NCBI RefSeq assembly: GCF_004917065.1
Contig: NZ_SSYA01000004.1
Coordinates: 6,127-70,126 of the forward strand
Direction: 5' to 3'
Length of the DNA: 64,000 bases
Source of the DNA: Geomonas ferrireducens
Lineage (GTDB): Bacteria > Desulfobacterota > Desulfuromonadia > Geobacterales > Geobacteraceae
This document shows positions 3,578 through 58,604 of the stretch, piece after piece (within the stretch, counting starts at the first letter, position 1; every line of letters starts with the position of its first letter). Position numbers and translations under genes: made by a program. Under the pieces are notes generated by a model. The model was given only the letters and a program-made list of their open reading frames with translations, had not been told where the DNA came from and made no database searches.

Positions 3578-4363
3578 ATGCCTGAGCTTCCTGATCTTAC
3601 CGTCTATGCCGAAAACCTAGGGAAGGCCCTCGTGGGGAAGAGGATCGAGAAAGGCGAGTACCACGGGAGGGGACGCCTCAACGTCGCAGCCGAGGAGCTT
3701 GCCGCCGCCGTCGCGGGTGCCGAGGTGACCGCTGTGGAGCGCACCGGCAAACAGGTGACCTTTCGGCTTGGCAACGGCAACACGCTGAAAATCCACCTGA
3801 TGCTTACCGGCGGGTTCGCCCTTGCCGGTTCCTCCGCAGTGCAGGAGGTCCGCTACCCGGTGCTCACCCTGCTCTTTGCCGACAGTACTGCCCTCGCCGT
3901 GGCCGACGAGAAGGGATGGGCGAGCGTCACCCTGAACCCCGGCGCCGAGAAGGAAGCGCCTGACGCGCTGGAGCTCACCGAGGAGGAGTTGCAGCGGTTG
4001 TGCGCCAGGAAGCCCCGCACCATGATCAAGCCTTTGCTTCTCGACCAGGCGCTGATCGGGGGCATCGGTAACGCCTATGCCGACGAGATCCTCTGGGCCG
4101 CGCGCATCTCCCCGAAATCCCCCGCTGGCAAGCTTCCCCCGGAGGCAGTACGGGCCCTCGCCGGGGCGATTCCTGCGGTCTTGAACGACGCCATCGCGGA
4201 GTTGAGAAAGCGCCACCCGGACATGGTTTCCGGTGAATATCGCGAGTTTCTGAAGGTGCACCGCCCCGAGCTTAAGACCTCCCCCACCGGTGCCAGGATC
4301 ATCAAGGAGAACGTCCAGTCCAAGCGGACCTACTACACCGAGGAACAACTGCTGTACCAGTAG
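3578..4363 (+). CDS. Fpg/Nei family DNA glycosylase without zinc-finger cysteines
   Basis: A 261-residue base-excision repair enzyme that would remove oxidised bases and nick the strand. The N-terminus MPELPDLTVY gives the family's catalytic Pro (after Met removal) and Glu. The Lys of RTGKQVTFRL (about residue 59) and the H2TH segment LIGGIGNAYADEILWAARIS (about 160-180) are in place. The C-terminal segment after HRPELKTSPTG keeps a beta-hairpin-like shape (ARIIKENVQSKRTYYTEEQ) but has none of the four zinc-binding cysteines of classical Fpg, so it resembles zincless-finger members. A GAGGAGGAGCC ribosome binding site precedes the ATG. Whether it prefers 8-oxoguanine or oxidised pyrimidines cannot be decided. 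Confidence 0.88.
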   Translation: MPELPDLTVYAENLGKALVGKRIEKGEYHGRGRLNVAAEELAAAVAGAEVTAVERTGKQVTFRLGNGNTLKIHLMLTGGFALAGSSAVQEVRYPVLTLLFADSTALAVADEKGWASVTLNPGAEKEAPDALELTEEELQRLCARKPRTMIKPLLLDQALIGGIGNAYADEILWAARISPKSPAGKLPPEAVRALAGAIPAVLNDAIAELRKRHPDMVSGEYREFLKVHRPELKTSPTGARIIKENVQSKRTYYTEEQLLYQ

Positions 4364-21199: not shown

Positions 21200-21219
21200 C
21201 CGCGGCTAGCTCGGCGGTT

Positions 21220-21264
21220 CGGACCAGTCGGACCAGTCAGACAGGTCAGACAGGTCAGACAAAA
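21220..21264. repeat. 9-bp tandem repeat
   Basis: Five 9-mers in register: CGGACCAGT twice, CAGACAGGT twice, then CAGACAAAA. It lies between the bioC stop and the bidirectional terminator. Confidence 0.75.
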
Positions 21265-31016: not shown

Positions 31017-31234
31017 GTTCAGCGTTCAACGTTCAACGTTACGACCACTCCCCCCTCCTGCCCGAGGGGGCAGACCGGGGCCGACACCGTAGTGACTGCG
31101 GGCGGAGGTTCCCTGGCTGCTCCTGAAAGGTCGGGGGGGAATTGTCGTTTTTGAGAGGCGACAAGTCGGTGTTACGCGTCCTTAATGGCGCGCACCGTTT
31201 ACGAACGTTGAACGCAGAACGTTGAACATTTTTT
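31017..31234. repeat. Heptamer-bounded intergenic element 1 (no gene)
   Basis: Left arm GTTCAGC-GTTCAAC-GTTCAAC-GTT (31017-31040), right arm AACGTTG-AACGCAG-AACGTTG-AAC (31204-31227) ending in T6 (31229-31234). The arms are inverted copies of one another. The 163 bp inside is GC-rich, with CGACACCG and CGGTGTT as a small inner inverted pair, and has no convincing gene. It starts 6 bp after the skp stop and ends 9 bp before lpxD. Confidence 0.8.
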
Positions 31235-51438: not shown

Positions 51439-52386
51439 ATGAAACACACACCTCTGGATTTCTCAGGTGTCACCACCTATCCCATCGCTACCCGCAAGAA
51501 CAAGATGAACGTCAAGGACGACTTCGCCCAGCCGGTGCGTTCCGGCATGACCGTGTCCGATCTCCTTGCCGCCATGCCGAACCAGTTGGGGGCGCAGGCC
51601 CTGAACCGGATCATCGATGCCGTGGTGGCGGCCAGGGCGAAGGGGAAGCCGGTCGTCATGGCCATGGGTGGGCACGTGATCAAGTGCGGGCTGCAGCCCG
51701 TATTGAAGTCGCTCATCGAGGCCGACGTGATCACCGCCGTTGCGCTTAACGGGGCCGGTTCCATCCACGATTTCGAGATCGCGCTCATCGGCGCGACCAG
51801 CGAGGATGTGGGCGTCGTGCTGCACGCAGGCAACTTCGGCATGGCCGAGGAGACCGGGGCTCAGATCAACGCAGCACTCAAGGAAGGAGTCGCCAAGGGG
51901 CTCGGGCACGGCGAGTCGCTCGGGCGGATGATACTGGAGCGCGAGCTCCCCTATCGCGAGCAGAGCCTTCTTGCCACCTGCGCCAAGAAGGGGATTCCGA
52001 TCACCGTCCATGTGGCGGTCGGTACCGACATCACCCATCAGCACCCCTCCGCCGACGGTGCGGTCATCGGCGCGGCGAGCTACACGGATTTCCAGATTTT
52101 CACCTCCGTGGTCTCGCAGTTGGGCGACGGCGGCGTCTACCTGAACATCGGGAGCGCCGTGCTTCTTCCCGAGGTGTTCTTGAAGGCCCTCTCCATCGCG
52201 CAGAACCTAGGTCACCACGTCGATCACTTCACCACGGCGAACTTCGACATGCAGCAGCACTACCGTCCGCTCACCAACGTCGTGAAGCGTCCGACTTCCG
52301 GCAAGAGCCACGGCTACACCGTAACCGGGCACCACGAGATCATGATCCCGCTCTTAGCGGCGGGGATACTGGACAGGATCGCCTAA
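51439..52386 (+). CDS. Conserved protein of unknown function, possibly deoxyhypusine-synthase-like
   Basis: A 315-residue cytoplasmic protein with no signal or membrane segment. KPVVMAMGGHVIKCGLQPVL and ITAVALNGAGSIHDFEIALI look like Rossmann-type strand-loop-helix turns, and VHVAVGTDITHQHPSADGAV, DGGVYLNIGSAVLLPEVFLK and TTANFDMQQHYRP are highly conserved in appearance. The gene order before hldE suggests a role in sugar or nucleotide metabolism. The deoxyhypusine-synthase-like fold is a guess from the glycine pattern and the late GSAV segment. Confidence 0.55.
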   Translation: MKHTPLDFSGVTTYPIATRKNKMNVKDDFAQPVRSGMTVSDLLAAMPNQLGAQALNRIIDAVVAARAKGKPVVMAMGGHVIKCGLQPVLKSLIEADVITAVALNGAGSIHDFEIALIGATSEDVGVVLHAGNFGMAEETGAQINAALKEGVAKGLGHGESLGRMILERELPYREQSLLATCAKKGIPITVHVAVGTDITHQHPSADGAVIGAASYTDFQIFTSVVSQLGDGGVYLNIGSAVLLPEVFLKALSIAQNLGHHVDHFTTANFDMQQHYRPLTNVVKRPTSGKSHGYTVTGHHEIMIPLLAAGILDRIA

Positions 52387-52390
52387 CCCA

Positions 52391-52874
52391 GTTCAACGTT
52401 CAACGTTCGACGTTCAAGAAATCTTGCCTATTAGCCGAATAGGAGGTGACGTCTTGAGAATAGAGCGCTTTGAAGATGTTGATTCGTGGAAACAAGCTCG
52501 TTTACCTGTGACGGATATCTATAAACTCCTTGGCGAATGCAAGGATTATGGGTTCAAGGATCAGATACAACGAGCAGCCGTCTCGGTTATGTCCAATATT
52601 GCGGAAGGCTTTGACAGAGGCAGCAACCGGGAACTTATTCAGTATCTCATCGTTTCCCGTGGGTCCGTTTCGGAGGTCAAGAGTCTTGCGTATGCCGGCT
52701 TGGATATCGGTTATTTCAGCCATGAATCGTTTGAGGAAGTGATCATGCGCTGTAACCGGATCAGCAACACACTAAATGGATTCATCAGGTTCTTGAAGAC
52801 GTCCCAACGCAAGGCATAGCCGGCCTGGAAGAAGTTGCCGGCGAACGTTGAACGTTGAACGCTGAACGTTTTTT
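52391..52874. repeat. Heptamer-bounded element 2 carrying a four-helix-bundle gene
   Basis: Left arm GTTCAAC-GTTCAAC-GTTCGAC-GTTCAAG (52391-52418), right arm AACGTTG-AACGTTG-AACGCTG-AACG (52844-52868) ending in T6 (52869-52874). The cargo is one gene (52454-52819), clearly less GC-rich than its neighbours. It starts 4 bp after the preceding stop and ends 10 bp before hldE. Confidence 0.85.
52454..52819 (+). CDS. Four-helix-bundle (S23/IVS) family protein
   Basis: A 121-residue helical protein of the family first found in 23S rRNA intervening sequences and related to the Avd protein of diversity-generating retroelements. Diagnostic features: an N-terminal RFEDVDSWKQARLPVTDIYK, the conserved core QIQRAAVSVMSNIAEGFDRG and ELIQYLIVSRGSVSEVKSLA, then SNTLNGFIRFLKT. 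The start is a TTG behind AGGAGGTG. GC content is near 46%, against above 60% around. It lies in sense with hldE inside a heptamer-bounded element; no 23S gene or reverse transcriptase is nearby. The biochemical function of stand-alone members is unknown. Confidence 0.88.
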   Translation: MRIERFEDVDSWKQARLPVTDIYKLLGECKDYGFKDQIQRAAVSVMSNIAEGFDRGSNRELIQYLIVSRGSVSEVKSLAYAGLDIGYFSHESFEEVIMRCNRISNTLNGFIRFLKTSQRKA

Positions 52875-52884
52875 GGGAGAAGTT

Positions 52885-54348
52885 ATGGATAGACGAGAAA
52901 TAGAATCACTTTTCGAGCGCGCCGGATCGATTCGGGTGCTGGTCATCGGCGATCTCATGCTGGACGAGTATCTCTGGGGCAAGGCGGAGCGCATCTCGCC
53001 GGAGGCACCGGTACAGGTGGTCGAGGTGTCCCATGAGGACCTGCGTCTTGGCGGCGCGGGCAACGTTGTCAACAACCTGATCGCCCTCGGGTGCCAGGTG
53101 GCGGTCTGCTCGGTGATCGGCGACGACGAGGACGGAGAGCTGCTGTGCCGCGCCATGGAGGGAAAAGGCGTGGACCTCGCGGGGCTCTTCCAGGACCCCG
53201 AGAGAAAAACGAGCAAGAAGACCCGCGTGCTTGCCGCGCACCAGCAGATCGTGCGCATCGACCGGGAAACGAAGTCGGTGCTGGGCCTTGCGAGCGAGCG
53301 GGTGCTCCTCGACTACGTGGACGCCCACCTGGAGAGCTTCGACGTCGTCGTCGTCTCGGATTACATGAAAGGGGTGCTCACCCCGGCGGTCCTCACCGCC
53401 ATCTGCAAAAAGGGACGCAAACTCGGCGTGCCGGTCGTCGTCGACCCGAAGGGGAACGACTTCGGCAAGTACCGCGGCGCCACCCTCCTTACCCCGAACC
53501 GCAAGGAGGCGGAGATCGCCTCGGGTGTCGCCATCACCGACATGACGTCGCTGGAAAAGGCGGCCGACACGATTCTCTCCGACCTCGAGCTCGATGCGCT
53601 CCTCATCACCCGCAGCGAAGCGGGGATGTCGCTCTTCCCGGCCCGCGGAGAGGCGGTGCACATCCCCACCGTGGCCCGCGAGGTGTTCGACGTGACCGGC
53701 GCGGGGGACACGGTGATCTCGGTCCTCTCCCTGGGGATCGCCTGCGGCCTCACCCTAGCCGACGCCGCCTGGGTGGCCAACGTCGCCGCCGGCATCGCGG
53801 TGGGCAAGCTCGGCACCTCCACGGTCTCCCCCGAGGAGATCGTGGTCGAGGCGGCGCACGGCCTGAGCGACAGCGACGCGAAGATCAAGAACCTCGACGT
53901 CCTTACCCACCTGATCGCCAAGGCGCGCGAGCGCGGCAAGAAGGTGGTCTTCACGAACGGCTGCTTCGACCTTTTGCACGTGGGGCACGTGAAGTACCTG
54001 CAGAAGGCGCGCGAGCTCGGGGACCTGCTGGTCGTGGGGGTCAACACGGACGCGTCGGTGCGCCGCCTTAAAGGGGAGGGGCGGCCGCTCATCCAGGAAT
54101 CGGAGCGGGCGCACATCCTCGCGGCGCTTGGCTGCATCGATTACGTGGTGCTCTTTGACGAGGACACCCCGCTTGCCGTGATCGAGGCGCTGCGCCCGGC
54201 CGTGCTGGTCAAGGGGGGAGACTACAGCATCGAGAACGTGGTCGGACGCGAGGTGGTCGAGGCCAACGGTGGCAGGGTCGCCCTCATCGAGTTCGTCGAC
54301 GGCCGCTCCACTACCAGGATCATTGAAAAGATACTCGCTTCGGGGTGA
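52885..54348 (+). CDS. hldE: Bifunctional heptose 7-phosphate kinase/adenylyltransferase
   Basis: A 487-residue two-domain enzyme for ADP-heptose synthesis. The N-terminal PfkB-type kinase has VLVIGDLMLDEYLWGKAERI, RLGGAGNVVNNLIALG and the catalytic DVTGAGDTVISVLSL (about 275). The C-terminal nucleotidyltransferase starts near residue 345 with VFTNGCFDLLHVGHVKYLQK (HXGH) and ends GRSTTRIIEKIL. It supplies the GT9 heptosyltransferases upstream. GGGAGAAG precedes the ATG at 52885, just downstream of element 2. Confidence 0.95.
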   Translation: MDRREIESLFERAGSIRVLVIGDLMLDEYLWGKAERISPEAPVQVVEVSHEDLRLGGAGNVVNNLIALGCQVAVCSVIGDDEDGELLCRAMEGKGVDLAGLFQDPERKTSKKTRVLAAHQQIVRIDRETKSVLGLASERVLLDYVDAHLESFDVVVVSDYMKGVLTPAVLTAICKKGRKLGVPVVVDPKGNDFGKYRGATLLTPNRKEAEIASGVAITDMTSLEKAADTILSDLELDALLITRSEAGMSLFPARGEAVHIPTVAREVFDVTGAGDTVISVLSLGIACGLTLADAAWVANVAAGIAVGKLGTSTVSPEEIVVEAAHGLSDSDAKIKNLDVLTHLIAKARERGKKVVFTNGCFDLLHVGHVKYLQKARELGDLLVVGVNTDASVRRLKGEGRPLIQESERAHILAALGCIDYVVLFDEDTPLAVIEALRPAVLVKGGDYSIENVVGREVVEANGGRVALIEFVDGRSTTRIIEKILASG

Positions 54349-58400: not shown

Positions 58401-58604
58401 GTTCAACGTTCAGCGTTCAATGTTCTAGTAAGAAAAGACGAATGACGGTTTCTATTGCAGCGGAGTGCGCTATAATGAGATCAAAGCTTGGCGTTCTTCA
58501 TGAACTCCAAGCTAAGATCTGCGGCGGCAAGCGTTAAGGAAACGAAGAACTTGCAACAAACGTTGAACGTTGAACGTTGAACGTTGAACGTTGAACGTTG
58601 AACG
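58401..58604. repeat. Heptamer-bounded element 3 (no gene, promoter-like cargo)
   Basis: Left arm GTTCAAC-GTTCAGC-GTTCAAT-GTTC (58401-58425), right arm six perfect AACGTTG copies (58559-58600). The cargo has a TATAAT at 58471-58476 and a hairpin AGCTTGG...CCAAGCT (about 58486-58514) with an inner GTTC/GAAC pair. It lies 11 bp after the lptB stop and 25 bp before rpoN. Confidence 0.82.

Follow-up and report, generated by a model that had tools for sequence, protein, structure and literature searches.

The stretch of DNA analysed here, referred to below as the window, comprises 64 kb of the 4.8-Mb genome of Geomonas ferrireducens (genome G000; G000:C4:6127-70126) and contains, in the spacer ahead of an hldE-type gene, a small unit that we call the S23 element. 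The gene upstream of this unit (51439-52386) has a weak deoxyhypusine-synthase match that falls below cut-off (21.3 bits), and the hldE-type gene downstream (52885-54348) encodes PfkB and cytidylyltransferase domains. The left arm of the element (52391-52417, plus strand; GTTCAAC GTTCAAC GTTCGAC GTTCAA) starts 4 nt past the upstream stop codon; the right arm (52843-52870, minus strand), in which the left arm is inverted, comprises 28 nt of heptamers, ends 14 nt ahead of the hldE start and runs into T6, which extends to 52874. Between the arms lies a gene of the PF05635/TIGR02436 four-helix-bundle type (S23, 23S rRNA IVP; 52454-52819, plus strand, 121 aa), which likely starts at the TTG at 52454, with a Shine-Dalgarno-like AGGAGG ahead of it (52441-52446, plus strand). 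The preliminary description of this locus counted four heptamers on the left and three AACGTTG-type heptamers plus T6 on the right: the tandem GTTCAAC type and the T6 hold, but the fourth unit of the left arm has only 6 nt, and the right arm has three heptamers and 6 nt when read in the phase chosen there (four heptamers in the opposite phase).

The arms themselves are not a product of chance, as indicated by the score of their inverted match (20, whereas none of 2000 mononucleotide shuffles exceeded 10.5) and by the exclusivity of the seven-base period: all five period-7 runs in the window (at least 18/21) fall within three inverted pairs, namely the S23 locus and two gene-less pairs, whereas periods 5, 6, 8, 10 and 11 yielded no run and period 9 a single one at the same threshold. 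Both gene-less pairs, to which no strand was assigned, have the same GTTCAAC-type arms as the S23 locus; one (31017-31227) is situated after a stop codon and ahead of the following start, and the other (58401-58603) lies upstream of a gene named rpoN-like by resemblance. The S23 gene is low in GC, as had been noted before (47%, vs 63% and 66% in the neighbouring genes), but the two gene-less pairs have interiors of 63% and 45% GC, and sequences between heptamer arms are thus not low in GC as a rule.

The long stem envisaged in the preliminary description can form, the two arms constituting an inverted repeat of 25 nt with 92% complementarity, and the predicted RNA fold of the unit is stable (z = -4.85; 0/100 shuffles equally stable). 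Such a stem would suit an element that resembles 23S rRNA intervening sequences (IVS) and acts at the RNA level, with the arms pairing in the polycistronic mRNA, RNase III cutting there, and the gene being removed or separated such that the insertion is harmless to the operon. The protein family is that of the rRNA IVS, whose stems are cut by RNase III according to the available text of PMC4990558. We regard this reading as unlikely, however, in that excision alone leaves the element-specific heptamers documented below unexplained.

The S23 protein matches PF05635 at 97.4 bits (cut-off 33.8) and TIGR02436 at 91.7 bits, which bears out its earlier placement in the 23S rRNA IVS protein family. 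PF05635 was its sole match in Pfam, two PRK12275-type models accompanied TIGR02436 in NCBIfam, and neither collection returned a catalytic or transposase domain. Among named genome contigs (best 80 of 527 listed), the best protein match is that of Geomonas oryzae, at 94% identity. The predicted structure (pLDDT 88.5) finds its best PDB match in 2gsc, five chains of which align with a query TM of 0.81-0.85 and a best E of 1.8e-6, pointing to a four-helix bundle of the Xcc0516 type; the nearest folds, in order, are 2gsc (Xcc0516) and 2rld (BT_0352), followed by Avd (4dwl) and the DGR ribonucleoprotein 8ub7. Estimates of dN/dS (0.09 for G000-G010, 0.18 for G006-G014 and 0.05 for G011-G005) indicate that the protein is under purifying selection, as gauged from three of 21 pairs, the remaining 18 having a saturated dS. 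Genomes G001 and G003 have a disrupted reading frame, and in G002 the match is limited to residues 13-121.

Across 19 genomes of the genus, our own included, 11 have an S23 element at the hldE site and eight do not, so that relatives lacking the element, for which the preliminary description proposed to look, exist. When heptamers are typed by their fifth base, the arms of the carriers are, on both sides and by the majority of their units, of the A-type in nine genomes and of the T-type in two. Five of the spacers without the element hold no substitute (G004, G008, G009, G016 and G017; 69-259 nt), and that of G004 may preserve a remnant of the right arm. The spacer of G016 (L154) is filled by a GACCAGTCG repeat, similar to a nine-base tandem repeat, TCGGACCAG, at 21219-21233 of the window. 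In the remaining three genomes (G007, G012 and G013; L149, L155 and L157), a RAYT and its REPs (GAATAATCATTCGCCC) occupy the place of the S23 element; the G007 RAYT (L149), the only copy scanned, matches REP_Tyr_transpos at 61.2 bits, below the cut-off of 80. The spacer upstream of hldE thus appears as a hot spot common to two unrelated repeat systems, the S23 element and RAYT/REP.

Heptamer arms also accompany PF05635 genes elsewhere, a point that the preliminary description proposed to check. We assembled 167 PF05635 loci, of which 80 come from named genome contigs that span many phyla (the 80 best of 527) and 87 are places in our own genome and its relatives (58 genomes), some places being duplicated between the two collections. 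Excluded were nine places above cut-off, comprising six partial matches (profile ~8-73 or 8-82) in long frames of G002, G003, G005, G007, G012 and G023 and three fragments in G022:C179, G030:C31 and G044:C319, as well as nearly all matches below cut-off (L247 was kept). Clustering at 75% protein identity yielded 113 clusters, and flanks were counted for one locus per cluster. Of 109 upstream flanks, 38% contain a period-7 run (at least 17/21) no more than 200 bp from the gene, and of 110 downstream flanks 50% do, compared to 0-6% over the next 1200 bp on either side (200-1400 bp), and periods 5, 6, 8, 9 and 10 beside the gene likewise reach only 0-6%. When upstream regions are compared to their own reverse-complemented downstream regions, the median score is 17, vs 8 for swapped regions; inverted arm matches of at least 16 are present in 62 of 111 own pairs, in 10 of 888 swapped pairs, and in 13.5% when the orientation is direct. 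Arrays scoring at least 12 have median lengths of 4.4 units upstream (n = 39) and 4.6 units downstream (n = 53), and 22 of the 111 clusters have neither period-7 arrays nor matched arms.

The heptamer word itself varies (GTTCAAC, GTTCTAG, AGGGGCT, CAATTGA, GGGGACC, ACTCGGA and others), with several words within one genome, but it is mostly identical on the two arms of an element. Within single genomes, arm matches of at least 16 characterize 41 of 54 own pairs (orthologous copies from several species included) and only two of 128 pairs drawn from different elements. Slippage can lengthen tandem arrays, and T-runs follow some of the right arms, so that heptamer pairs might be viewed as ordinary bidirectional terminators or mRNA-stability hairpins grown by slippage, in spacers that PF05635 genes happen to tolerate. 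This we consider improbable: the arrays cluster in the 200 bp next to PF05635 genes, with no such concentration at 200-1400 bp, and their words match within an element but hardly between elements of one genome. The PF05635 genes with their period-7 arms seem to constitute small genetic elements of a kind that is widespread but has received little recognition.

Two further counts over these loci bear on the RNA-level, IVS-like reading. Where the neighbours (taken as the longest ORFs) agree in strand, the PF05635 gene is co-directional with them at 59 loci out of 68, which is what a unit carried on mRNA would need; on the other hand, seven exact 23S rRNA words are absent from all 167 loci, so that no locus was recognised as an rRNA IVS. 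A search by protein sequence alone led to distant relatives on plasmids (25-35% identity; eight of 18 matching records inspected by eye for runs), and five of these eight have inverted arms, near the gene in L331, L332, L333 and L335 and further away in L334; of the others, L336 has partial arms, L337 lacks the right arm and L338 has direct arrays. No plasmid DNA resembling the whole S23 element was found. In the plasmids of Anabaena sp. 90 (L334) and Pseudanabaena galeata (L338), the PF05635 gene sits between cas6 and cas4 in CRISPR loci, and in L338 it has long direct heptamer arrays to either side; cas loci are known to contain IVP genes (available text of PMC3936711).

Within Geomonas, most heptamer pairs enclose no gene. 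The pattern GTTCAACGTTCAACG (at most one mismatch) has 145 matches in our own genome, vs none for a reversed-pattern control, and when arrays lie at most 500 bp apart, 27 converge, two diverge and one is tandem (1.59 Mb of three close species, orthologous stretches included). Typed by the fifth base, 39 pairs in Geomonas-like genomes are A/A in 29 cases, T/T in nine, A/T in one and T/A in none; three enclose an S23 gene, and the other 36 enclose 22-181 nt, which again argues against an IVS-like RNA unit. In 522 kb of our own genome there are eight pairs, of which one holds the S23 gene and seven enclose 77-168 nt, a ratio that also speaks against heptamer arms as mere terminator hairpins around a tolerated gene. 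By blastn (E <= 1e-3), a cargo of these 39 pairs resembles no other cargo than its orthologues in the other two species; no two cargos from one genome match, such that recent copying is not seen, and a MITE family with a common interior is accordingly not supported.

Comparisons at orthologous sites show that the two arms change together, whether or not the interior changes too. At one site (G000:C1:275104), arms are of the A-type in G000 and G001 and of the T-type in G010, where the interior does not align; at another (C1:331111), arms are A-type in G000 and T-type in the other two species. Flanks of such orthologous sites are 88-96% identical while the whole module can differ. In the pair upstream of the rpoN-like gene (58401-58603), both arms have switched type between G001 and G000/G010, GTTCTA-type arms being present in G001 and several other species, and a TATAAT-like core is conserved inside. 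Elsewhere, spacers turn over as whole modules: a lone right-hand array, outside the window at L263 ~3868-3892 (G000:C4:73868), is present in G000 and G001 and replaced in G010 by a GC-rich inverted repeat (CCCTCCCCTGGAGGGGG). A T-type and an A-type pair flank an apparent RNase P RNA gene, identified as such by eye, at L010:787-1522 (G000:C1, ~599.7-600.4 kb).

In Geomonas-like genomes, the numbers of arrays are linked to the presence of a gene with the corresponding arms. Genomes with a GTTC-armed gene at the hldE site contain 85-261 GTTC array matches (n = 11), vs 16-125 in the others (n = 8; Mann-Whitney p = 0.0003, uncorrected for relatedness, and with G009, among the others, having another GTTC-armed gene, L207). 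Similarly, AGGG array matches number 30-64 in the five genomes with an AGGG-armed gene vs 0-125 in the 14 others (p = 0.02). The upper extreme, G008, has 125 AGGGRCT array matches and no PF05635 match at E <= 0.001, indicating that, in the absence of the gene, arrays persist or spread. Three arm words were followed across ten distant genomes. One, ACTCGGR, hardly occurs outside its own genome, where 14 matches out of 19 lie inside the element itself; the other two are commoner in other genomes than in their own, such that specificity of arm words for their own genome was supported for one word and not for two.

These patterns can also be set against the possibility that S23 is an RNA- or DNA-binding regulator, that arrays near stops and ribosome-binding sites are its operators, and that the arms of its own gene provide autoregulation. 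The purifying selection on the protein, the location of arrays, in the three cases of the window, in gaps that separate a stop codon from the following start, and the TATAAT-like core retained despite a change of arms are all compatible with a regulon, and tandem heptanucleotide repeats of Geobacter metallireducens were taken as regulatory by that genome's authors (available text of PMC2700814). We think it quite unlikely, because genomes contain several PF05635 genes, each with its own arm word, because some relatives keep many arrays while the gene is absent or broken, and because orthologous sites show replacement of both cargo and arms.

Among known systems, 23S rRNA IVS share with the S23 element the protein family, a single short ORF, terminal inverted repeats that yield a long stem, low GC and a patchy distribution, as far as the available text of PMC4990558 describes them. 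They differ in location, the S23 element lying between two protein genes and not inside a 23S rRNA gene, and in that the S23 element has element-specific tandem-heptamer arms and gene-less pairs, the period having been examined on the S23-element side. IVP genes have also been described in 16S and 23S insertions of CPR bacteria (available text of PMC11270868). The preliminary description's view of an IVS-like element was apt as to protein type, terminal inverted repeats, GC and patchy presence, but it overlooked the genome-wide gene-less family and the element-specific heptamers. REPIN/RAYT systems resemble the S23 element in their intergenic, inverted and mostly gene-less pairs of short repeats and in a single-copy gene flanked by the same repeats (available text of PMC3116915), and a spread of this type, of spacer pairs sharing the gene's flank repeat, is found in the Geomonas-like genomes and is mixed in the three distant cases. 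However, their repeats are single palindromic REPs, where the S23 element has tandem heptamers and mutually dissimilar cargos, and their protein (RAYT) is a transposase with a Y1/HUH domain, which the S23 protein, a four-helix bundle, lacks. Lying outside rRNA and lacking a RAYT, the S23 element belongs to neither system. As to insertion sequences and MITEs, the S23 protein returned no transposase domain, and no empty site was resolvable for a duplication. Finally, DGR Avd has the same fold (4dwl, 8ub7; within an RNA-protein complex, according to the title of 8ub7), a resemblance also noted in the available text of PMC10053308, but it has only 6-7% sequence identity to the S23 protein, and our own genome has no RVT_1.

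Several orphan heptamers resemble the S23 arms in being tandem and largely confined to spacers: GGGACCG of Geobacter, GGGAATC of Xanthomonas, GGGGA(C/T)T of Nostoc and TAACTGA of Beggiatoaceae (the last in PMC4679880), and the portions of their published descriptions at hand draw no link to S23 genes. GGGACCG, the Geobacter word, also makes up the arms of a G030 PF05635 gene (L041); in the G. metallireducens genome, four-heptanucleotide GGGACCG elements and other tandem-repeat pairs were described, and G. bemidjiensis has multicopy spacer repeats (available text of PMC2700814 and PMC2996986). Converging GGGAATC pairs number 70 and 75 in two Xanthomonas genomes according to the corresponding part of PMC4692102.

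We find it somewhat probable that the S23 unit represents a small element of intergenic spacers, selfish or mobile, whose protein recognises the heptamer arms of its own element. The S23 four-helix bundle would bind the tandem heptamers on both inverted arms, a folded single strand (a DNA hairpin or an RNA stem) being their probable form, and would enable the arm-bounded unit to pass by copying or exchange from one intergenic spacer to another, the chemistry being left to host enzymes; gene-less heptamer pairs would be its non-autonomous partners, served in trans. A Xanthomonas relative of the protein is a homopentamer (available text of PMC4990558), and this, together with arrays of 4.4 and 4.6 units, makes one subunit per heptamer an attractive idea, offered as a suggestion. 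Movement through a dedicated reverse transcriptase was considered and appears unlikely, RVT_1 not being common to the genomes with the gene: it exceeds cut-off in seven of the 19 genomes of the genus (G001, G002, G005, G007, G011, G012 and G016) and is absent from our own and eight other genus genomes that have an over-cut-off PF05635 match. No clean target duplication was seen at any compared site, the compared spacers differing as a whole. Further points that weigh against a mobile element are the lack of recent copies among the cargos, the arrays of G008 in a genome devoid of the gene, the two arm words that are commoner outside their own genomes, the 22 clusters showing neither sign, the missing catalytic domain of the protein, and the disrupted or incomplete frames of G001, G003 and G002. 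For a second PF05635 element (G001:C10:430031), the G000 stretch placed by extrapolated synteny gave no alignment; at a lone array in G010 (G010:C13:61757), the whole spacer differs from those of G000 and G001; and at G010:C13:111509 no clean boundary was readable.

A broader proposition, which we put forward tentatively and as possible rather than probable, is that S23/PF05635 proteins are the signature of a class of mobile elements that is spread throughout bacteria, does without a transposase and is defined by the seven-base period. Each such element has its own word, rewritten jointly on both arms, and spawns gene-less copies. The orphan heptamers of Geobacter, Xanthomonas and cyanobacteria would then be traces of such elements, and rRNA IVS would be members that landed in rRNA genes. 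Among the matches listed from a full-text collection with few subscription papers and no bioRxiv preprints, we found no report tying heptamer arrays to S23/PF05635. An S23 structure has been solved since 2006 (2gsc), and we found no established function for the protein. If S23 acts on the flanking heptamer arms, these would provide S23 proteins with a substrate that is immediately open to binding assays, several unexplained families of heptamer repeats would be joined to one protein family, and an origin would be offered for rRNA intervening sequences.
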